A stretch of DNA of 64,000 bases from positions 1,724,800-1,788,799 of the forward strand of contig CM041198.1 of assembly GCA_023078555.1 (NCBI GenBank), given 5' to 3'. Below the pieces are notes generated by a model, which worked only from the letters and a program-made list of their open reading frames with translations, was not told the origin of the DNA and did not search any database. Origin of the DNA: Ulva prolifera (lineage: Eukaryota; Chlorophyta; Ulvophyceae; Ulvales; Ulvaceae). The position numbers and the translations under genes are program-made. This document shows, in pieces, positions 9,029 through 43,689 of the stretch. Each line of letters starts with the position of its first letter. The first letter of the stretch is position 1.

Positions 9029-9045
9029 TACATACATACATACAT
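9029..9045. repeat. (TACA)n tract at the R1/R2 junction
   Basis: A tract of about four ACAT units separates the R1 3' end from the R2 5' end (CTGTCGTCTGTGCTG). Confidence 0.85.
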
Positions 9046-9197
9046 CTGTCGTCTGTGCTGTGTCGTGGTCCCGATGTAGACGCATGCCAAAAGAACCCGG
9101 CTGCGGGAGGCAGCAAAAAGAAAACGAATAGGCCCTTAGTTGTGTTCTGTCGTCCGCTGTCGTGCAGCTGCAACGAATACGCGCGCCAGCTGCCAGT

Positions 9198-9423
9198 GTT
9201 CCGTCGTTCTGCAGCCCCACTAGAATGCCAGCGGACTGACCGCCAGTGGCCTGCAGCCTTGCCCATTTGGAACACCTAGATGTCTGTTCTATGTTTCGCC
9301 TGGCCTTCCTGGTGACCCGCTTGGCTGTGCAGCCGTCATGTCGGCGCGGGCCGCTGGCTGCCCGCGTGCCGTTGTCCGGCAGTCCCACTGGCAATCCTGC
9401 GGACTAGCCGCAGGTGATCTGCA
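9198..9423 (+). repeat. Two related leader segments with a small hairpin
   Basis: Segments near 9198-9256 and 9369-9423 resemble each other: a CAG..CCCACT block, a CGGACT block, then CTGCAG. The second contains a 7-bp perfect hairpin, CCTGCGG..CCGCAGG, at about 9396-9415. The same arrangement is in R3. This could be structured RNA at the 5' end of the element. Confidence 0.5.
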
Positions 9424-9544
9424 GATTTGATTCGTTAAAAGTGTTGTGTGTTTGTTGTTTTAGTTTTGTGCCGTCTGGCCGGTTCAATGGCCCGTTAGAC
9501 TGCACCGTTAGTGTGTCCGCTTTCAGCGGAACGAGTCCCTGCGT

Positions 9545-12500
9545 ATGAGCTTTCAGTGTCCATATGACGGATGCAGCGCTAGTCTCTCCTCCCATTCAAG
9601 TCTGTTCACCCACATCCGAGGAATCCATCGCGACGGGCCGAGGCTGCCCACTGCGAAGCTGCACGAACTCAATGCCGCGTACTGCTCTCACTGTGGCATA
9701 TTCGGCTCCACCAAGACCCCTAAGGCGCATAAATGTGTGGGAGGTCAGAACAGGAGCTTGAGGTCAGGTCACTGCGTGCTGCCCGCCACACATCCGGCCC
9801 GACAGCCCGCCCCAGCCCAACCCGCCCCAGCCCAGCCCGCCCAGCCGCAGCCCGCCCAGCCGCAGCCTGCCCAGCCTGCCCAGCCGCACCCCCATCAGCC
9901 ACCCCGTCACTTCACCGAAGCCCCCGCCGCCGCCCACAACACCGCCCAGCCCAGGCCCTCCCCGAAGGTCCCGGACACCGTCCATCCGGAGTTCGGCGAC
10001 GCAACGGCCGAGCTCCTCAGAGATTTCAACGATGCCAGCGACGCGTCAAACATCGACGGAGCACGACTGGCCCTGGGCCGCGTCCTCGACTTCCCTGGTA
10101 AGGTTCTGTCGCTGAAGGGAGGGGACGGCACGGCGCGCCGCGCTCGTACATGCATCACGCTGTTCATGGACGGCGAGGAGCCCAGGCTGGCGGAGCCCAC
10201 TCCGAGCCAGAAGCGCAGAATGAATCAGAACCAGGATCGCCGCCTGGCGGGCTCCGTCCACAGGTCACTGAGCGACGGTAATGTCCGCAAAGGCGCGGAG
10301 AAAGTGGAGGCGCCGCCCATCGCCAGGTACACCCCGGAAGTGCATGAGACGCTGCGGCACCTGCATCCCGCAGAAGCGCTCCCCCCCGACACCCAGCCCG
10401 CCGAGCCCGCGCCCCCGCTGCAAATCGACGAGGCGACGCTCCGCGCACTGCTCGACAAGCTGCCGAAGGGCAGCGGCCCAGGCCTGTCGGGGTGGACGTA
10501 TGAGCACATCCGGGCTGCTGGCACGGCCTCCACGGCCGCATTCACGGAGATTCACCGCTTCGTGAACGCGGCCCTCGCCGGCCGGCTGCCACACCTCCCG
10601 CGCTTGCTGGACTGCCGCCTCCTCCCGCAGGAGAAGCCACAGGGAGGCGTCCGCCCTATCGCCATTGCAGAGACGTGGCAGCGCCTGGTAAGCCTGTGCG
10701 CCATGACCCTGTGCAGTGGCCTGGGTGCCTCCCTCGCGCCGCTGCAGGTGGGGGTCGGGGTGCCAGGGGGCGCGCAGAACCTGGGCCATGCTGCGCGCGC
10801 CGTGCTGCAAGCGTGGGACGATGTCGTGCTTGTGCAGCTGGACTGGAAGAATGCATTCAACATGATGTCCCGTGCAGCCATCTTGGAGGCCGTTGCGTCT
10901 CACAAGCCTGCGCTGCTGCCCTTCGCCACCATGCTTTACAGGTTCCCCGCAAATCTCTACATCGAAGGCGCACCGCCCGGCACCGCTGCAATCACGTCGC
11001 AGCGCGGCGTGCGTCAAGGCGACCCCATCAGCCCGCTGCTCTTCGCCCTGGCCCTCCAGGGCCCCCTCCAGGCAGTGCAGGCCCAGCACCAGCCGCCCGG
11101 GAGGGAGGTCACGGCCGCCCTCATGGCGTATCATGACGACTGCACCATCGCCGGGCAGCGCGTGGACGCCGCCGCCGCATTCCGTGCGCTGGTCTCGGCA
11201 GCAGAGCCCCTCGGGCTGGAGCCCCAGCTGCACAAGTGCACGGCCTACTCGCGCGACCCCCAGCATGCGGGATCCGTCGCGGCCGCGCTCGGCATAACGC
11301 ATGCCACGGAGGGCACCGTCATCACCGGCACGCCCATCGGCACCCCGGCGTTCGAGTCGGCGCACGCGGAAGCGACGGCCGACAAGGTGTGCGCCACCAT
11401 CGAAAAGATGATGCGCTTGCCCCTGAAAGCGCAAGACCAGTTCTTGCTGCTCACGATGTCCTGCCAACGCCGTATGCTGCACTACGCCAGGGCGGTGCCG
11501 TGGGCGCACATTTCCGATCACATGCGCCGGACGGAGGCGTCCGTCCTGGCTGCGGTGAATGAAATCATGCGCGTCCCGCGGGACGACACTCGTGCGGCCG
11601 CACAAGCCGTCCTTCCAGCGCGCCTCGGAGGCCTGGGCGTCACGTCCACGCCGCAGGAGGTCGCGGACGGAGCGTACCTCGCTGCAGCGGCGGTGAGCCA
11701 AAAGGCGTTCGCAGGAGGCCCCGAGTGCATGCAGCCGTACCGGGGGCCGCACGGGCAACAATTGCAGGAAACCTGGCAGGCCCTCAACGTCGCTCAGCAG
11801 CTCCATCCGGAGCTGCCCGGGCCGGCGAGCGGCGACACCATCGCCAAGGTGTTACCTGGTATGCAGCAGCGTATCACAAAGTTGGTTGCCCTGCGCCGCC
11901 GGGCAGCTCTGCTTGCCAGCCATGACGTCGCCACGCTCGAGGGTGCATGCACCTTGGCACGGCTTCGCAGCTGTGCTTGCCGTGCAGCCACCCTTTGGTT
12001 GAGCACCCTGCCGCTCTCCCAGGCGCTGCGCATGACTGACATTGAGTTCATGCTGTGCATCAGGTATCTCCTGGGCATGTCCCCAGCCCCTCCCAATGCG
12101 GTCGGCTCGCACTGCGAATGTGGCACTCTCATACAGCCGCATGATCTCGATCACGCGATGAATTGCACACACAATGCGGGGACCTGGACTTCGCGCCACA
12201 ATATCGTTGAAAAACAATGGCGCGAGATCGGGTCCCACGCGTGTGTGGCATCCACGCGCATCCCGCGCACAGCGCCGTTCGTCCGCGCGCAGCTCGCGGC
12301 CGCATCGAGGCAGATCCATGCTGGCCCGTTGGGCCCGCCCCCCCCTGCTCCGCCCCAGCCCGCCTCCCAGGTCGCGGGCCCTTCGCGTGGGGCAGCCTTG
12401 CCCGCGGCGCCGATGCCTGCAGCCCCGCCGCCGCCGCCGACCGCGCGCGCGGACGAGGCGCCGGCACCTACGCCTGCTCCGGCCGCCGACGCCGATGCTG

Positions 12501-13105
12501 GACACAGCGCCCACATGGGGCGCCACGCGCCAGACGCAGCGCAGGCTGCGGCCCTGGCGGCGGCGGCGGCGCCGGGTGGTCAGGGTCCAGCGGGGCCTGG
12601 GCAGCAGGCCGCTGCCGCGCAGGCCACGGCGCTGGATGAGGTGTTCAGGGCAGTGGCCCAGGAGAAACTGGGGGACATCATGTTTATGCCGCCGGGCGAC
12701 CCTTTGTGCATAGGAGATGTGTCGGTTGTGAACCCCTGTGCTGGTTCCTATTGCGGCCGTGCGGCCCGCGAGGACGGGGGTGCTGCGGAGACGCGGGACG
12801 TGCAGAAACGCACTGCTTATCGTTTGTACGACCCTGATGCGTATAGTTTCGTGCCGTTGTCGCATGAGACGCATGGTCGCTTGGGGCGGCCTGCCATGAA
12901 TCACTTGAATCGGCTGGCGGAGGTTGCGTCTCGGTGTGGTAAGGTGAACCGTGCTTTGTTTGTGACGAATGCTCTGCGCCGGTTGAGTGTGGCGTTGTGC
13001 AAGGGGAATGCTCTTGTGCTCCGTGCGGGGCTTCAATCTTTGGCTGGCATCACCGGCCGAGCTGTGGTACGTGCTCGTGCCCGGCCTAGTGCCATGACTG
13101 CGTGA
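9545..13105 (+). CDS. RLE retrotransposon polyprotein, 1186 aa (R2)
   Basis: The N-terminus has a C2H2 finger (CPYDGC...HIRGIH, residues about 5-28) and a second Cys/His cluster (YCSHCGIF...HKC, about 47-65), then a Pro/Ala/Gln-rich linker (about 85-125). The RT spans about 280-620 with LPKGSGPGLSGWTYEHI, GGVRPIAIAETW, LDWKNAFNMMS, RGVRQGDPISPLLFAL and the catalytic motif AYHDDCTIAG, where His precedes the two aspartates. A CxC...H....C knuckle (CECGTLIQPHDLDHAMNC) lies near residue 865. After an Ala/Pro-rich linker comes the likely restriction-like endonuclease: GDPLCIGDVSVVNP, a lysine (QKRTAYRLYD) and FVPLSHETHGRLG. The start is the first Met, four residues before the first finger cysteine. 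It should bind, nick and prime DNA at a preferred site. Confidence 0.9.
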   Translation: MSFQCPYDGCSASLSSHSSLFTHIRGIHRDGPRLPTAKLHELNAAYCSHCGIFGSTKTPKAHKCVGGQNRSLRSGHCVLPATHPARQPAPAQPAPAQPAQPQPAQPQPAQPAQPHPHQPPRHFTEAPAAAHNTAQPRPSPKVPDTVHPEFGDATAELLRDFNDASDASNIDGARLALGRVLDFPGKVLSLKGGDGTARRARTCITLFMDGEEPRLAEPTPSQKRRMNQNQDRRLAGSVHRSLSDGNVRKGAEKVEAPPIARYTPEVHETLRHLHPAEALPPDTQPAEPAPPLQIDEATLRALLDKLPKGSGPGLSGWTYEHIRAAGTASTAAFTEIHRFVNAALAGRLPHLPRLLDCRLLPQEKPQGGVRPIAIAETWQRLVSLCAMTLCSGLGASLAPLQVGVGVPGGAQNLGHAARAVLQAWDDVVLVQLDWKNAFNMMSRAAILEAVASHKPALLPFATMLYRFPANLYIEGAPPGTAAITSQRGVRQGDPISPLLFALALQGPLQAVQAQHQPPGREVTAALMAYHDDCTIAGQRVDAAAAFRALVSAAEPLGLEPQLHKCTAYSRDPQHAGSVAAALGITHATEGTVITGTPIGTPAFESAHAEATADKVCATIEKMMRLPLKAQDQFLLLTMSCQRRMLHYARAVPWAHISDHMRRTEASVLAAVNEIMRVPRDDTRAAAQAVLPARLGGLGVTSTPQEVADGAYLAAAAVSQKAFAGGPECMQPYRGPHGQQLQETWQALNVAQQLHPELPGPASGDTIAKVLPGMQQRITKLVALRRRAALLASHDVATLEGACTLARLRSCACRAATLWLSTLPLSQALRMTDIEFMLCIRYLLGMSPAPPNAVGSHCECGTLIQPHDLDHAMNCTHNAGTWTSRHNIVEKQWREIGSHACVASTRIPRTAPFVRAQLAAASRQIHAGPLGPPPPAPPQPASQVAGPSRGAALPAAPMPAAPPPPPTARADEAPAPTPAPAADADAGHSAHMGRHAPDAAQAAALAAAAAPGGQGPAGPGQQAAAAQATALDEVFRAVAQEKLGDIMFMPPGDPLCIGDVSVVNPCAGSYCGRAAREDGGAAETRDVQKRTAYRLYDPDAYSFVPLSHETHGRLGRPAMNHLNRLAEVASRCGKVNRALFVTNALRRLSVALCKGNALVLRAGLQSLAGITGRAVVRARARPSAMTA

Positions 13106-13164
13106 GTGGATTTGCGTGTGTATTCCTGGCAACGGCTCGCTGCCCGGCCTCTGTCCTTTGTAAC

Positions 13165-13180
13165 TACATACATACATACA
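13165..13180. repeat. (TACA)n tract joining R2 to duplication copy 1
   Basis: The R2 tail runs directly into ACAAAGGAGAGAGGCC, which is the left edge of the tandemly duplicated segment. Confidence 0.8.
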
Positions 13181-35190: not shown

Positions 35191-36702
35191 CTGTAGCAGC
35201 ACCTGCTGTGCAAGGCAAGGTAATACCTTGGCTATACAAGCACTCAGTCTCCTTAACGAGCCAGAGCAGCTGAGGGGATACTTGATGTACATGCCGTTGA
35301 TGCCACTGCGACTGCGTTCCGCATGTAGCTGTCGAAGCCGATCTACCACTGCGAGTGGCGAAAGTGGATTAGGTGGGCGCTGGTCACAATGCCGCGACAG
35401 ACCCTCCGAGCATGAGGCAGCCTCCTCAGTCGGCTTTACACATCATTCGGCAGCGTCTACGTAGCATTCTGGCCTCACGACATTTCCTGTTAGCTGCGTT
35501 GAGCGACATGCGCCCATCGTCTTTCTGATTCATTGCTTGGTGCCGTTCTGAGCTTTGCCGCTTTAGCGAGCATATATACAGACCTGAAATATGGAGAAAT
35601 ATGCTCATGCTGGCTGACGCATGGCGTAGCAAGTTGCCCTAGGGCTTTATGTCCTGACGTCCCTACACCATCCCTGGGTGCGAGTTTCGACTGCAGCTGC
35701 TCCAACGCCTGCATGGAACGTTTTAATGCAGCACAATTTGCGCTTCAAGAATGTGTTTGAGGACTGCGGAGTCTTCCTGAGCTGCGTCATCTTTGTCCGT
35801 GCATGCCCATGAGAGATGCGGGCGGATGTGCGACATCTTGCCACCCCTCAAAAGGTGGACGTACAGACTAGCGGCAGCTGCGATAGCGATTGATTTTGCA
35901 CCTATGCCTGTTTAGTTCCTGCTCTGCCAACCTCGTTGATGCCCTGCGTAGCACGCATGCACGGTAGAGTCTGTGAACTCGCACGTAACGTGCACGTCTC
36001 GCCTGCTCTGATAGGAGGCCTCGACGTCATCTGTACGCACTTTACTCTGATACGCCAGCTTAGTCTCACACCGGGGACGGTCTGCGTTTTGAAGATTCCT
36101 GCATCGACATGCCCAGGCTACAGATACATCGTAGAGCTCAACCCAGTGATTTCCACAGGCACGCCAGTCAAGGCTACGGCGCAGCTCCCGCCCGGTAGCG
36201 GCTGCGGCCTTGCCCACATTCATGCGAGCAGCCGTCCCCAGGCGGCGCGCGTGGCGGCCACAGGCCCAGGAGATGCTGCCGCCCCAGGCAGATGTGAAGC
36301 CTGAGCCGACCTCGAGCTCAGAGAGTCTTCCGGTGTGCACCACCGGCTGAAACACAAGCATCTGAAAAACCTTCTTCGCCCCACAAACTGCACCAGGCTC
36401 TACACGTCATTCCAGCATGTTGGAAATTGATGTCCCGGCGGTGGGCCCGGGGCTCGGCTCGCTACCCCATTGCCACCCAGAACACCATACGATATCATCA
36501 TAGTAGTTCCCCGCCTCATTGCTATGCCATGGGACAGTCCAAGCTCTTGTAATTTTGCCAGCGCCCACTCTGCCACCACACACTCGATCCGCTCCCGACT
36601 CCAGGATTGCCCCCATAGGAGTGACGATGTGGTCATGCATGTGTCACAAGGACATGCTGGAGGCTGGTAGCACCGCCGGGGAAGCACAGGCATGGCACCG
36701 TC

Positions 36703-39700
36703 ATGCATGTGTGTGCACGTACGCCTTACACCCCCGCCCATCTGCAGGGCACCCCGCCTTTCGCCAGGCCCACGCCATTCTCCCGGTGCACCTTGACTCG
36801 GCGGACCACCTCTCCTGCAGCACCACCACCACCACCACCACCACCTCCTGTAGCTAGAGCCCCGCATGCGGCACCAACGTCACGTCGACCGCCTCCGAGC
36901 GCCACCGCAGCGGCGCACGGCACCCAGCCTCCGGCGGCTCCGCCGCGGGGGGACCCCCCGCAGTGCACGCTGTGCTGCGCCGCGCGCTGCGAGCCGCCGC
37001 CACCCGGCGCCACGGCGGGCGCCGCGGCGCCCTGCCGCCGCTGCTGCCGCATGCTCGAGGTGCTGGAACCTTCCGGCGGCACGGCCCCTGCGCTGCGCGC
37101 TGCGCTACGCGCTGCGCTGCGCGAGTGCGGCGCCGGCGAAGAGGACATGCTGCTGCTCAAGGCGGCGCTGCGCCACGCGCAGGCGGCCGGCAGCCCGCCG
37201 CCGGCCGCTGGGGGCCCGGACCCACCCCCCCCGCGCCCGAGCGGCTCCCACCCGGCTCACGGGCGTGACCTGCCGAACCACGGGGCGGCGGCGGCGGCGT
37301 GGCCGGCGGACATGAAACTGGACAGCGCTGGGGGAGAGGCCGTGGTGGTGAGGGCCCTGGAGGGCGCGCCAGACGAGGCCCCCGTCATCTGCACCGTGTG
37401 CCGCGTGCACACATGTTCGCTGTCGGCCGTCCGCGCGGGGCGGCGCTACTGCGGCCGCTGCCAGCGCCTGCTCCAGCGCGCGCGGCAGGGCGCGAACAGC
37501 CCGTGCCAGATGCGGCACGTGCGCGCCGCGTTCACGCGCCTCGGCAGCGGCGCGAGCGACACGGCGGTCGAGAAGGCGGCGCTGGAGATCGCAAGCGGGC
37601 GCGCGGCGCGCGCCGACGGCGACGTGCGCGAGCTGATGCGGAAGCACTCCGTGCAAAAGAGCGCGGCGGCGGGGCCCAGCCGCCGGGTGAAGGCGGGTGC
37701 AGACGGGGGGGCCGCGGAGGCGGTTGCCGCTGTGGCGTGGGAGCGGCATGCGGCGCGGGGTGGCGCCACGGCGGCTCCGTGCCCCTCCATATGCGCGATT
37801 TGCCAGACGCGAGAGCGCACATGGTCTGCCGCACACGGGTTCGGCGGGTACTGCCAGTCATGCAAATCGGTGCGGGAGCGAATCGTCAGGGCGATGGGCA
37901 AAGCAGACACCCTCATGCTCCGCGCTGCGTATGCTGAGCTCGGGCCAGATGCGCCGTTCGAAGACGTGGTCGAGCGTTTGCGGCGGCTGGGTCAGGGTGC
38001 AGGTGGCACAACGGCTGTCGATGGAGATGACGTAGCAAGCCCGGACGGACGGGGCAGGCCTGAGTGTGTGGCTGACGGTGGGTGTGGGGATGACGTGGCG
38101 CAGGGGGCCCCGGCGCCGGTGGCCGGTCAGAAGCCCCCATGCCGCATCTGCATGCAAAACGAGCGCCGCATAAATGCTTCATACTGCTCCTCGTGTGATA
38201 CGCTGCAGCACAAGATGAAGGGTGTGGCCGGGGCGACAGCGCTGCTGCGCGCTGCGTATGCTGAGCTCGGCCGGGGTGCGCCAAGCGAGGATGTGGTTAC
38301 GCGTGCGCGGCAGATGGCTCTGGGTGAAGGGGGGGTGGCTGCTGCCAAGGGGCGAATTGCAGCGGGGTTGCCGAAGCGGGCGGCGGCGGCGGCGCAGCCG
38401 CCGCCGCCGCCTCCGCCTCTGCCGGGCCAGCCCCTCTGCAGCGTCTGCGAAGTGCATGCGCGGCACGGCAACAGGCCGTACTGCCCCCAGTGCGACCGCA
38501 TGCGCAATCACATGAAGGGCGTGCCCAGGTCGGTGCGGCTGCTGCGTGCTGCGTTCGGAGAGCTGGGCGGGCACGCGCCGCCGGAGGCCGTGCTGGCGCG
38601 TGCGCGACGCCTCGCCGTCGCCCCGGAGTGCGCGGAACTCCCCGCAGCCGCGCCTATCGGCGGCAGGCCGCAGCGCGCAGCGTGTGCGCTCTGCCTTTCT
38701 GTTGAGCGGCGCCACTCCGTGTACTGCGGCCGGTGCGACAGCATGAGGAGCACGCTCGGCTGCCGGGGGGCTGTGATCAAGCTCCGGGTGGCGCTGGAGG
38801 AGCTCGGGGTTTCTGCTGACCGGGGGGCGCTGATAAGCCGCGCCCGTGAGCTTTTGCATGAGGAGGAGGAAAATCGTGCCGGCGGAGGGGCCCCCGCGCG
38901 ATCCGCCTCGCCAGAGGGCCGCCGTTCAGCGGAGCGCGGTGCAGTCAAGGAGGAGTCTGACTCGCCAGGCGCCGAGTCAGCAGATGGTGATGAAGTAGAG
39001 CCGGGCGGGAGCTTGTCTGAAGATGGGACAGAAGACAGCCTGTCGAGTGATGAGCAGGGGGCTCATGCATGTGGAGATGCCATGGCGTACCCTGGCGCGG
39101 TGAACAATGCAGCCACAGGGGAGGGGCGCGATGGAGGGCCGGGCGCGCAGCGGCGCGTGTGCGGCGGGCAGCAGCGTGTACTGGCTCCGGGGCTGGGAGA
39201 TGCGGCGACTCGTGTGGCGGCGGGCCCGGGGGCGGCTGCATGCGTGGCGCTGCGGGGGATGCCGCCGGAGCTGGCAAAGCATGCGGTGTGGCGGGCGGAC
39301 CTGCACCGCAGCTCCCTGCTCGTGCTGCACCGCCGCGTCGCACAAGTGGTCCAGGTGCGCTACGCCGAGTCTTAACGCGTGAGGCTCCTGAACGCGTGAT
39401 CTGTACAGTGCTGAGCACCACAGCCACGCCGTCCACGACAGGCCTTCGGTGCATGGGCGGGGTGACGGCGCATGCGCGAGTGCGTATTTGCTTGAAAAAG
39501 CTGCCCCCCTCCCCCCCCCCCCCCCCTGCCCGCCGAGCCGCACTGATGCTTGCACCGGCACGCGACAGCTCTCTCACGCCGGCTCTCCGCTGCGGCACGA
39601 GATGACGCCGAGCACCGCAGCCCGGCACGCCTCGCCCCTATCATGCATGTGATCCATGCATGTGTGTGTGTGCAGGGCCAGCAGTACGTGTACTGCGCGG

Positions 39701-42700
39701 ACGTGAGCGCGGGGGTGGAGGCGTTCCCGATTCCGGCGGTCATCGACGACCCCGCCGCGCTGCGCGCCTCCGGCGTGGGCCCCCCGCCCCTCTTTCCGGA
39801 TGGCTTCACCTACACGACCGACCCCGCCGCGCTGCCGATGACGCCCGCAGCGCGGGCGTTCCTGGACACCGTGTACCCGGCGGCCAAGGCCGCCGACATG
39901 TGGGCCGGCTGCCGGCGCACGCACATCCGGGGCGGGCGTACGCTCCTGCCGCCATGAAGGGAACTGCTTGTGCATGTGTTAGTAGTGTGTGCTGTCATGG
40001 CGACACAAGTTTGAATGACGTACATTGCGCTGGGGTGAGGCGGGACAGCCAGTCTAGTTCCGCCCTTCCTTTTTCTGTCCGGCAGGTTTGCAGGCAGTCT
40101 GGTTTCCTGCGATCTACTGGTACCCCATGGACACGCGCATGGCAGCAAGTGTATGACGCACGCTGTGCTGCAGTGGCAAGCCTAGCACGTCCCGGGGGAG
40201 TCAGCCTGGACCCACACCTGCGGCTCAAGGTATTGAATAACCACACGCCGTTGGTGGAGTGCGAGCCGGGCTGCTCCTGCCCCCTCAAGTCGTGCGCTCC
40301 TCAAACCCCCATGTCGCAGCCTTGATGTACTCTCTCCTATGCTGTGCGACCGTCAGGGTTGTGCGGCGTGTCCATGGGGACATGCTCAAGGTCAGGATGC
40401 ATGTTGCGCGGACCCCACGAGGCCCCTACGGCAGCACTCCAAGCGCGGCTCTGACCACACAGGGCAAACACGAGGCTCACATGCAGGGTGACGACGCGCG
40501 GCATGCACCTGCCGCTTCAGATGTTCCTCCACCAGAACCCCGACGGGTCCCCGTCGGCCGTCGGCTGGGGCGTGCGCTGCGCGGTCGCCGTCGCGGCCGG
40601 CACCTTCGTCGCCGCGTTCACCGGCATCGTGGCCGCGAACGCCGAGGTGCCGCCGCGCAGCCGCTACGCCGTCTGCCTCGATCATTTCCTCGACGCCGCC
40701 GGCGGCCGCGGCCCGTCCCCCCTCACGGCGGTGCGGCCCGCACTGTGCGTGCTGTGCGTGCTGCGCATGCAAAGATGTACATATCTGGCAGTGTAATAGC
40801 AACGTAAATGCGGATTGACTGAGCTGTATCCTGAAGAGGACATTGAAAACTCATGGGACCACATGCCGAAGTGTTGGGGGGCTGCCGTGTGGCAAATAGA
40901 TCTGAATGTCTGGTACTTTTCTGATTGAAGGAGCCCGACACTGGCGTGGTACCCTGGCCTGGCCTGCCGTGGACGTGCGTGTGCCTCAGGCGCGTGGGGG
41001 GTTGTGCTCACGGCAGAGGCTGCGGCTGTGATGTATGTCATCTGTCCGTACGGATGCATGTCTCATGCAAGTGTCCAGGAGCGGACAGTGTTGTGCAGTT
41101 TATCGACCGTACCTGTGCGGATGCGCGAGTGGTCGCAGCGGTTCGAGACAACAAGGTGTGCAGAGTAGAGTATGCATAGCATGCTCCCCCCCCCGCCTTG
41201 AACAGCGGGCCAGTGCGCTGGTGGCGTTGGCTCTGTGTGGCCGAACCCGGGGTTGCCGGTGCATTCTGACAGATGCTTGCCGCGTGTGCAGGCCCAGCTG
41301 CCCCGCTTCCCAGTCGTTCCCGTGCAAACGCTGCCGACGGCGCCCCGCCGGCTGAAGCCGATCAACTACGCGGCTGTGCCTGATGGCGCTCTGGCCACCT
41401 GGCGCTACGGCGGCATGCAGCCGGCGCCGTCGCCCCTGTTGCGGCCGCCGCAGTCCACGGATGCAATTGCGGTGAAGCCACTGGCTACCGACGCCGCAGC
41501 GCCGCCGCCCGAGGCCGCTCCGGCGGCTGCGGCGGCAGCGGACATTGCACCGCCGCCGCCGGCCGCGGCCGCCCCAGCGCACGCGCCGTGCAGCGCGCAC
41601 GCAGCCGCTCCGGCACCTGCAGGCGGCAGTGTGGAGCCGGCTTGTGCGTTTGCAGTCGCCGAAGCGCATTCACCGCATGCGTGCGTGTCGACGCCTGCGC
41701 CGGCTGCCCCGCTGCGCCCCTGTTCAACGCCGCTGTGCTGTGCCGAGCCCAGCACGCCGACACGGGCGGCGCCGGCGAGGTCTGCCGTCAGCGACGCGAC
41801 CCCGTTCGCGCAATGCATGAAGCCCAGCGCGCACAGCGTGGGCACCCAACGCGGGCCGTCCGCGTCCCCGGTGTCTACATCGTGCCATCTGCCTGCGTTC
41901 TCCGGGTCCCCCGCACACGGTGCGGCTGCTGTGTCCCCCACAGGGACGCGGCTGCCTCCCACACCTGCGCAGAGTCTGACCCCGGTCGGCGGCAGCGTTT
42001 TGTCAGACGTTCATGGGGCCGCAGAGGCGGGGTGGCAGCGTCCGCTGTGGCAGCAGCCGGGCGTCAACACGCATCTCGGCTGCGCCAACCTTCTCCCGCC
42101 ACCGGTCGCGCCGGTGACGAAGCCCAGCACGCAGCACGGTATGCCAGCAGCCACAGCAGCCGGTGCCGAGCACGCGGTCGGGCATGCATGTGAGCTGACT
42201 CCTGCCGAGGCAGCAGCGACCGTCGTTGGCCGTGAAGTGCGCATGGAGCGGGGTAGCCACGCAGCCACACTGGCTGCTGCGCATGCTGTGCATGCTGGGC
42301 GTGCTGTGGCTGAGTGCGGTAGCCCCTGCGTTGGCCCCTGCGCAGCCAGTGCACGAGACCCGAACTGCGGCGGGAGCGGCGGCGATGTGCGCGGCGTGCT
42401 CTGCGGCATGGGGGACGCGGGCACATGCGCCGTGGCGGAGGTGAATCGCGGGGAAGATGTATGTGAGGCGGACCTCGAGGAGCTGCGCTGCGTGCGGCGT
42501 GCCCTGCTGTGCCTGAGCCGCCGCGGCGCACAGCATGTGCCGACCTTCATGTGGGACCGGCTCGTCGAGTCCAGGGTTTTCCGCGCCATCGGCCACGGCC
42601 GCAACCGGCCCCATGACCCACACCCCGTAGCCGCGGCGGCGGCACCAGCTGCGGACACCGTGGCGCGCGTGCATGCCGGTGCCGCCCATGAACCAGCTGC

Positions 42701-43689
42701 CGGTGTGGCGCATGCTGCGGCGAAGGTGGAACAAGCCGCGCCGTCGCCGTGTGCCATGCCCGAAGATGTGAACGGCCGTACATTTCAGGGTGCGCACCCT
42801 GAAGGCGGCGAGGGGCCTGCCACCAGGACGCCATGCAAGCGGGAGATCGTGGCTCTGCTGGCAGACGGGGTAGACGTGCTGCCGACGTCCGCCGCAGGGT
42901 CAGCGAAGCGGCGCCGGGTGGCGTTGCATGCAAAGTGCGACGCACCTGGGGCATGCCGGTGGGCGCCGTACCGGTGCGTCCCCCTGCCCTTGCCGCATTG
43001 TCTCGGAACCCTGAGCCTGCTCACGCAAACCCGGCGCGTGGACACAGCAACACGGATCCGCCTGAATGTACACGTAAGCACCTGCCGACCCCACCTGCTG
43101 CTGCGCACCCCTCTCCAGAAACATTCTCCACGTCTGAGCGGCTGCCTAAAAAGCATGCATACATACATATTGTGGACTTACTGGCCACGCCGTCCACGCA
43201 CGTGTCCTTGACGCTGTTGCCGCGGGGCATATTCCGGTGTCGTGGCATGCAGCGGCCGTAGCCATACGACGTGTCCCTCGTTCATCTGCCGGATTCCTTC
43301 TGGTCTTTGTTTGTTGCCACTAGTTCCCCTCAGTATTGTATGGTTTTTCCAGGCATATGAGTTGTCATGCATGCAGGGGCCGCGCGGACCTGCCGGGCCC
43401 AGACGCGATCCCCCCGGACGCGGAGCACCTCGTGATCGACGCGGAGCGCGCCGGCAATGTCGCGCGCTTCCTCAACCACAGCTGCGCTGCCAACGTCGCG
43501 TGCCAGAGCGTGCTGCTGCCGGGCGCCGGCGGCGCGCTGCTCTACGGCGTCGCGCTGTTTGCGGACCGGGACGTCCCCGCGATGACGGAGCTGCGGTGGA
43601 ACTACTACGGCGGCTCGGCCGGGGAGGCGGAGGGGGGGAGCGTGGCGTGCCGCTGCGGCAGCACGACGTGCCGGAAGTGGTTGTACTAG
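36703..43689 (+). CDS. SET-domain histone lysine methyltransferase with N-terminal CxxC modules
   Basis: Proposed exons: 36703(or 36748)-39354, 39676-39937, 40174-40291, 40487-40730, 41099-41155, 41292-42958 and 43377-43689. Phases agree and give about 1,770 residues. Exon 1 holds about six modules, C-x2-C...YC-x2-C followed by a helix like LLRAAYAELG (near 36964, 37390, 37789, 38139, 38439 and 38677). Then comes DVSAGVEAFPIPAV (about 39700), the SUVH/SUV39 pre-SET entry, and VECEPGCSCPLK (40252), a reduced pre-SET Cys cluster. SET-N is LPLQMF...VGWGVRC...GTFVAAFTGIV. SET-C has ARFLNHSCAANV, the AdoMet-binding/catalytic NHSC motif, and ELRWNYYG. Post-SET is CRCGSTTCRKWLY just before the stop. 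About 555 Ala/Pro-rich residues interrupt the SET domain. It likely methylates histone H3, with Lys9 the best guess. The start is uncertain because an upstream exon may exist. Confidence 0.75.
39505..39530. repeat. Poly(C) run in intron
   Basis: A nearly pure run of C broken by one T lies in the first proposed intron of the SET gene. Confidence 0.9.
40804..40875 (-). mobile_element. Short LINE-A-tail-like repeat in SET gene intron
   Basis: Read on the minus strand it contains GGCATGTGGTCCC, then TTTTCAATGTCC and GGATACAGCTCAGTCAATCC, matching the tail consensus GTCAATGTCCAATAGGATACGGCTCAGTAAAT seen at the other sites. It sits in the intron 40731-41098. Confidence 0.75.

Follow-up and report, generated by a model that had tools for sequence, protein, structure and literature searches.

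Tandem cysteine modules of an unrecognised kind very probably joined to an SUVH-type methyltransferase gene in the green seaweed Ulva prolifera

Results

An Array Exon with Six Tandem Modules

The stretch of DNA analysed (the window, 64,000 nucleotides) corresponds to C3:1724800-1788799 of the Ulva prolifera genome (88.9 Mb, 44 contigs). The plastocyanin of this genome, from two exons joined by hand, matched PDB 7PCY, the protein of Enteromorpha (now Ulva) prolifera, without a difference over 98 residues and 1IUZ less closely, as expected of U. prolifera or a very near relative. The parts of the gene it carries are listed below with their main support; A, B and C (C3 2.24-2.28 Mb) and b (C3 2.40-2.41 Mb) designate its paralogues. 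Domain E values of the modules refer to a non-window profile, whose 10 rows came from a module alignment built jointly with the window rows.

36748..39354, + strand: large exon, its six tandem modules set apart by Pro/Ala-rich linkers (open frame; splice-signal reading)
36958..37191, + strand: module 1, the most divergent and weakest (domain E 0.012)
37387..37605, + strand: module 2 (domain E 2.2e-5)
37789..38004, + strand: module 3 (domain E 1.9e-12; AF2 model)
38134..38331, + strand: module 4 (domain E 1.3e-18; AF2 model)
38431..38622, + strand: module 5 (domain E 8.5e-19)
38680..38868, + strand: module 6 (domain E 1.4e-10)
39250..39354, + strand: segment lying between array and pre-SET exon (window vs. 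gene A 1e-7, vs. gene C 5e-4)
39676..39921, + strand: pre-SET lead exon (GQQYVYCADVSAGVEAFPIPAVIDD...; 79-80% to gene b; present in four genes)
40194..40286, + strand: pre-SET Cys segment (VECEPGCSCPL; 61% to gene b; splice points approximate)
40485..40727, + strand: SET first half (GWGVRC...; DIM-5 and Pfam SET matches; paralogue comparison)
41292..43073, ends approximate, + strand: Pro/Ala-rich insert of about 594 residues splitting the SET domain (open frame)
43378..43689, + strand: SET second half (RFLNHSCAANVA), post-SET CRCGSTTC and stop (PF00856 at C3:1768222-1768404; 72% to gene b)

An open frame of 916 codons (36625-39372), followed by an in-frame stop at 39373, contained six C-x2-C...C-x2-C units. 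Their first Cys codons lie at 36964, 37390, 37792, 38140, 38437, and 38683, and the two C-x2-C motifs are separated by 19, 16, 16, 11, 11, and 10 residues in modules 1 to 6, respectively. An acceptor AG in phase 0 (36746-36747) precedes the array exon, whose start is more likely at 36748 than at the ATG at 36703; the donor after 39354 reads GTGCG, as it also does in three paralogues. Further 5', at 36222-36333, the sequence may contain an initial coding exon, which would include a KPEP stretch.

All six tandem Cys modules that the first-pass annotation had read in exon 1 were found, at most 6 bases from the positions given there and far beyond chance expectation. The spaced double-CxxC pattern occurred six times in the array frame, whereas 1000 shuffles showed it 0.085 times on average and never more than 2 times. 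The non-window profile recovered the six window modules in place (whole ORF E 1.6e-66, 217.6 bits), and no other window ORF did better than E 0.14-0.15; 38 of 1000 shuffled versions of the array frame scored at all with this profile, the top value being 8.3 bits. Leave-one-out searches inside the window, each with one sequence, also recovered every module (E 3e-24 to 4e-7).

A Module Family in the Ulva prolifera Genome

Module loci were traced by single-module searches of this genome together with profile scans, so that the counts given here are lower bounds. Modules were read at ten loci: the window gene, genes A, B, C, and b, a copy of gene B on C4, two genes at C1 8.10 Mb, C1:2968101, and C3:9473441. 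A third C1 gene (8103869) and places on C6 and C7 (the latter with a stop) count as search matches only. The modules at C1:2968101 (5e-13) and C3:9473441 (1e-12), as well as two modules of gene C (8e-12), were recovered by profiles built without them. Across all 16 modules of the alignment, four Cys and one Arg never varied. The array of the window gene, with six modules, was the longest found in the genome; gene b has four, A and B three each, C two plus a weak one, and the two stand-alone C1 genes that were read have two each. In the tree of modules 14 of the 20 inner branches were open and the pairs W1-b1 and B3-C1 alone were starred, so we make no claim about module history. Searches with modules 4-6 gave 6 pattern matches in viruses and 121 in prokaryotes, with no relative among them; these single-protein scans reach close relatives only.

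Two further observations concern this family. The stand-alone genes at C1:8099784-8109729 lie in tandem, and the two that were read carry Cys-less helical repeats before the modules, which by eye look like the second half of window module 1. At C4:4079287, the copy of gene B is frameshifted and contains an SRA piece and modules, the first of them 69% identical.

Predicted Fold and Family Assignment

AF2 models obtained from the six window modules as sole input reached a pLDDT of 87.1 and a pTM of 0.73 for module 4, and 77.5 and 0.60 for module 3. In both models a bridge is predicted at residues 4 and 12 and the second C-x2-C begins a helix, with two further helices behind it; module 3 shows an extra short helix in the loop. 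The two predictions agree in topology, a cysteine knuckle followed by three main helices, which presumably resembles a treble clef. Foldseek searches of the PDB gave no significant match to this topology (best E 3.0 for module 4 and 1.9 for module 3, the latter among the 50 best of 79 matches), and a search of viral models with one module model gave a best E of 3.0.

Neither Pfam nor NCBIfam, nor the PDB sequences, nor either of the two fold libraries yielded a credible relative for the module, which upholds the earlier view that it could not be recognised as a type such as PHD, CXXC, RING or B-box. When the 16 modules were scanned against Pfam at E values up to 10, each zinc family appeared in at most two of them. 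The best was zf-UDP (E 0.012, 2 of 16 modules), whose 16.1 bits fell short of the cut-off, 27.1. No accepted profile match was obtained for PHD, RING, CXXC, GATA, or other Pfam zinc families in the same 16 modules, and C2H2 was absent from the Pfam scans of both the array exon and the modules. The TilS substrate-binding domain (PF09179) passed its Pfam cut-off on the exon (22.5 vs. 21 bits) over a stretch of 37 residues where module 5 is helical, and appeared in 1 of the 16 modules scanned singly (E 0.018); we judged it to be a chance helix match. Likewise, the best PDB profile matches, the designed helical filaments DpHF7 (2.9e-5) and DpHF18 (0.009), covered the helical half only and were put down to helix similarity. 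The module is possibly a new domain family.

It could instead have diverged from a zinc family already described, for example the GATA-like treble clefs or a ribosomal-type zinc ribbon, a reading compatible with the others considered here. The helix starting at the second C-x2-C in both AF2 models, the gaps of 16-19 residues in modules 1-3, which we take to be near the GATA spacing, and a match to eL43 (E 0.074, profile positions 2-47) speak for it. We nevertheless regard it as quite improbable, given that Pfam zinc families appeared in no more than two modules, at 0.012 at best, and that neither the PDB fold searches nor the profile matches of the Cys part reached significance.

What the modules bind was considered from the same data. 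The computed charge at pH 7.2 was positive in 15 of 16 modules, a weak sign of DNA binding. Alternatively, the modules would contact proteins, such as a ubiquitin-like partner or one another, and so act as the scaffold of a complex, any targeting being then indirect. Helices make up much of the module, the non-significant PDB matches include UBA (2cp9, 2dal, 1wgn, 2jy5, 7u4z), CUE (2ekf), and RuvA chains, and the Cys-less repeats of the stand-alone genes resemble, by eye, the helical half. However, all these matches were at E 2.4 or worse, and the invariance of the four Cys and the Arg and the basic character of most modules also speak against this reading. We therefore consider protein binding unlikely, although it keeps an appreciable share of our belief.

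The Array Exon and the Pre-SET/SET Exons

The intron before the pre-SET exon was alike in the window gene and in A, b, and C, with phase 0, a GTGCG start and a GCAG end, and in all four genes possessing this exon an open frame holding one or more modules lies directly 5' of it. In gene C that frame holds a single weak module (domain E 0.003), and its two good modules are located 5-8 kb further up. The pre-SET exon of the window was related to those of C (82%), b (79-80%), and A (59%); a fifth match, at E 0.69, was taken as chance. The segment linking array and pre-SET exon in gene b matched those of A and C at 0.019 and 0.07 only. As the same order and a like phase-0 intron are found in four of four genes, array and pre-SET/SET very probably constitute one gene, in agreement with the joining of exon 1 to the pre-SET/SET exons proposed earlier from the window. 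The array frame does continue to the in-frame stop at 39373, as it would if array and SET were two separate genes, but given the shared order and splice signals we hold that arrangement to be very improbable.

Exons of the window gene joined by hand matched PF00856 (3.6e-12, profile positions 1-104 of 105) and, over residues 88-287, DIM-5 (3.6e-20) and SUVH6 (4.1e-18), with Clr4 and SUVH4 chains also among the matches; the first 87 residues of this query, the pre-SET lead, lie outside the PDB match. VECEPGCSCPL aligned with DIM-5, its last Cys hinging on the splice point chosen, and no PF05033 match was obtained, be it on the joined exons, in the genome or in the control genomes. The window SET contains NHSC (RFLNHSCAAN) and a post-SET CxCx4C (CRCGSTTC). 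The Tyr of the DIM-5 motif Y-x-G-E, which has a catalytic role, is Phe in the window gene and b, Ala in A, and Tyr in C and in an SUVH gene on C5. No family was found in a Pfam scan of the insert that splits the SET domain. Its ends were alike in the window gene, b, and C, and that of b was longer; the comparison, made on fetched regions with the low-complexity filter off, was noisy and the similar ends alone were used.

The frames of the window gene were intact through the array, the pre-SET, both SET halves, and the post-SET. NG86 dN/dS ratios between the window gene and its paralogues b and C, rough because the exons are short, were 0.32 and 0.13 for the pre-SET, 0.61 and 0.35 for the SET first half, and 0.37 and 0.42 for the second half; pairs with gene A gave 0.29-0.94. 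By these ratios the enzyme exons of the window gene are under constraint.

In gene A the second half of the SET (C3:2260948-2260715) has lost its end as well as NHSC (RFLKRTRAHAGNVAVQ), and the search for a SET in gene B found none. These features and the ratios of up to 0.94 with gene A indicated that part of the family is decaying.

SRA Domains in the Paralogues

Searching the genome for SAD_SRA with E values of up to 0.1 gave eight places, distributed over C10, C5, and C3, none of them inside the window; those on C3 lie 5' of the modules in b, A, and B. The SRA of gene C was found by tblastn (0.002) and by an exon profile built without gene C (5e-11). The genome-wide search had overlooked it, and a weak SRA can thus escape that search. 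For the window gene no SRA was detected by genome search, tblastn or exon profile, the best profile value being E 0.051 on the minus strand. The last SRA piece and the modules of gene B share one open frame. In gene A some 13 kb lie between the upstream SRA and the modules, and the two would belong to the same gene.

Joined SRA pieces, which were unequal in extent and came from few genes, scored 110.4 bits in the C5 gene, 86.2 in b, 41.2 in A, 32.9 in C, and 30.5 in B, so that three paralogues, b, A, and C, exceed the 30.7 bits that Pfam sets as cut-off and B falls just below it. No SRA was found in the window gene, which has the most modules. The C5 locus (C5:1369117-1371802) is a compact SUVH gene with a strong SRA, whose best PDB match was SUVH5, and a SET; no module was found in the C5 stretch fetched, and the gene perhaps represents the ancestral form.

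The presence of an SRA 5' of the modules in A, b, B, and C indicated that the array was added to SRA-type genes. The first-pass annotation had the array replacing the SRA. As a general rule this must be discarded, since the four C3 paralogues keep an SRA; the window gene is the only one to show none. The grading of the SRA scores, from these few genes and unequal pieces, would fit a replacement still in progress, with the SRA perhaps yielding to the array.

Large, recent direct and inverted duplications, 96-99.9% identical, occupy 4393-31595 of the window (for example, 9041-13169 inverted to 29978-25850) and end about 5 kb upstream of the gene. They make a loss of the SRA by rearrangement possible, and the window gene could then be a 5'-truncated or decaying member of the family with no new targeting design. 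The nearness of the duplications, the distance of about 13 kb between SRA and modules in gene A, and the broken SET of A, the missing SET of B, and the frameshifted C4 copy all fit such an account. It sits poorly with frames intact from the array to the post-SET and with dN/dS below 1 against both b and C, and we consider it unlikely.

Discussion

On the sequence evidence, the fusion of an unrecognised tandem module with an SUVH-type enzyme is very probably real and, judged from four genes, conserved. We interpret the window locus as encoding an H3K9 methyltransferase of the Su(var)3-9/SUVH type, whose array would be a targeting device specific to the lineage, a reading to which we give a probability of about 0.5 and in which activity, zinc, DNA binding, and targeting are all putative. 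Six tandem Cys4 modules, of a family expanded in the Ulva genome, would precede the pre-SET. Each would probably hold one zinc ion in its predicted knuckle, the second C-x2-C opening a helix and two helices coming after. DNA or nucleosomes are the most likely ligands of the array, and the array would direct the enzyme to certain sites, perhaps rich in transposons. It would have been added to an SRA-type SUVH, the SRA seeming weaker in array genes and being unseen for the window gene. We counted the DNA_methylase (PF00145) matches of the genome in support of this explanation. Weighing against it are the Phe that the window gene and b have in place of the DIM-5 Tyr, the lost NHSC of gene A, the missing SET of gene B, the TilS match, for which chance is our sole explanation, and the UBA-like bundles among the non-significant fold matches.

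More speculatively, and in our opinion rather unlikely, the zinc-and-helix domain expanded in Ulva would provide changing DNA-reading arrays that take over from the SRA, so that silencing would be aimed by DNA sequence and not by methylation, as an independent algal counterpart of SUVR5 or PRDM9-like systems. One genome holds graded forms, namely SRA only, strong SRA with array, weak SRA with array, and array without detectable SRA, which makes a swap of targeting devices testable.

Like SUVH4/5/6, the window gene has a SET and a post-SET, and its paralogues carry an SRA; it differs from SUVH in the array before the pre-SET, in the long insert splitting the SET and in that no SRA was found. 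By eye, its DxSxGxExxPIP lead presumably resembles SUVH as well. SUVR5 of Arabidopsis has no SRA, finds DNA through three C2H2 fingers and mediates H3K9me2, according to the portions of that work available to us (PMC3469426). The window protein would likewise be an SRA-less Su(var)3-9 enzyme directed by tandem zinc fingers, but with six Cys4-plus-helix modules instead of the three C2H2 fingers described there, no C2H2 match, and a chlorophyte host (PMC3469426). In the accessible parts of a survey of SET proteins in 16 Archaeplastida species, Ulva not being one of them, the class IV Su(var) arrangement SRA-preSET-SET appears in chlorophytes, and Table 3 places zinc fingers with a Su(var) SET in land plants only and contains no such array (PMC5725981).

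Our literature searches, for which subscription papers were mostly outside reach, returned no report of such a module array and no paper for Ulva together with SUVH. To our knowledge, little is known about the aiming of H3K9 methyltransferases in algae. What is new here is an array joined to SRA-type SUVH genes in a green seaweed and not simply replacing the SRA. The SET of SETDB1-type enzymes is bifurcated by a long insert, and the window gene is like them in this one feature, the only one compared.
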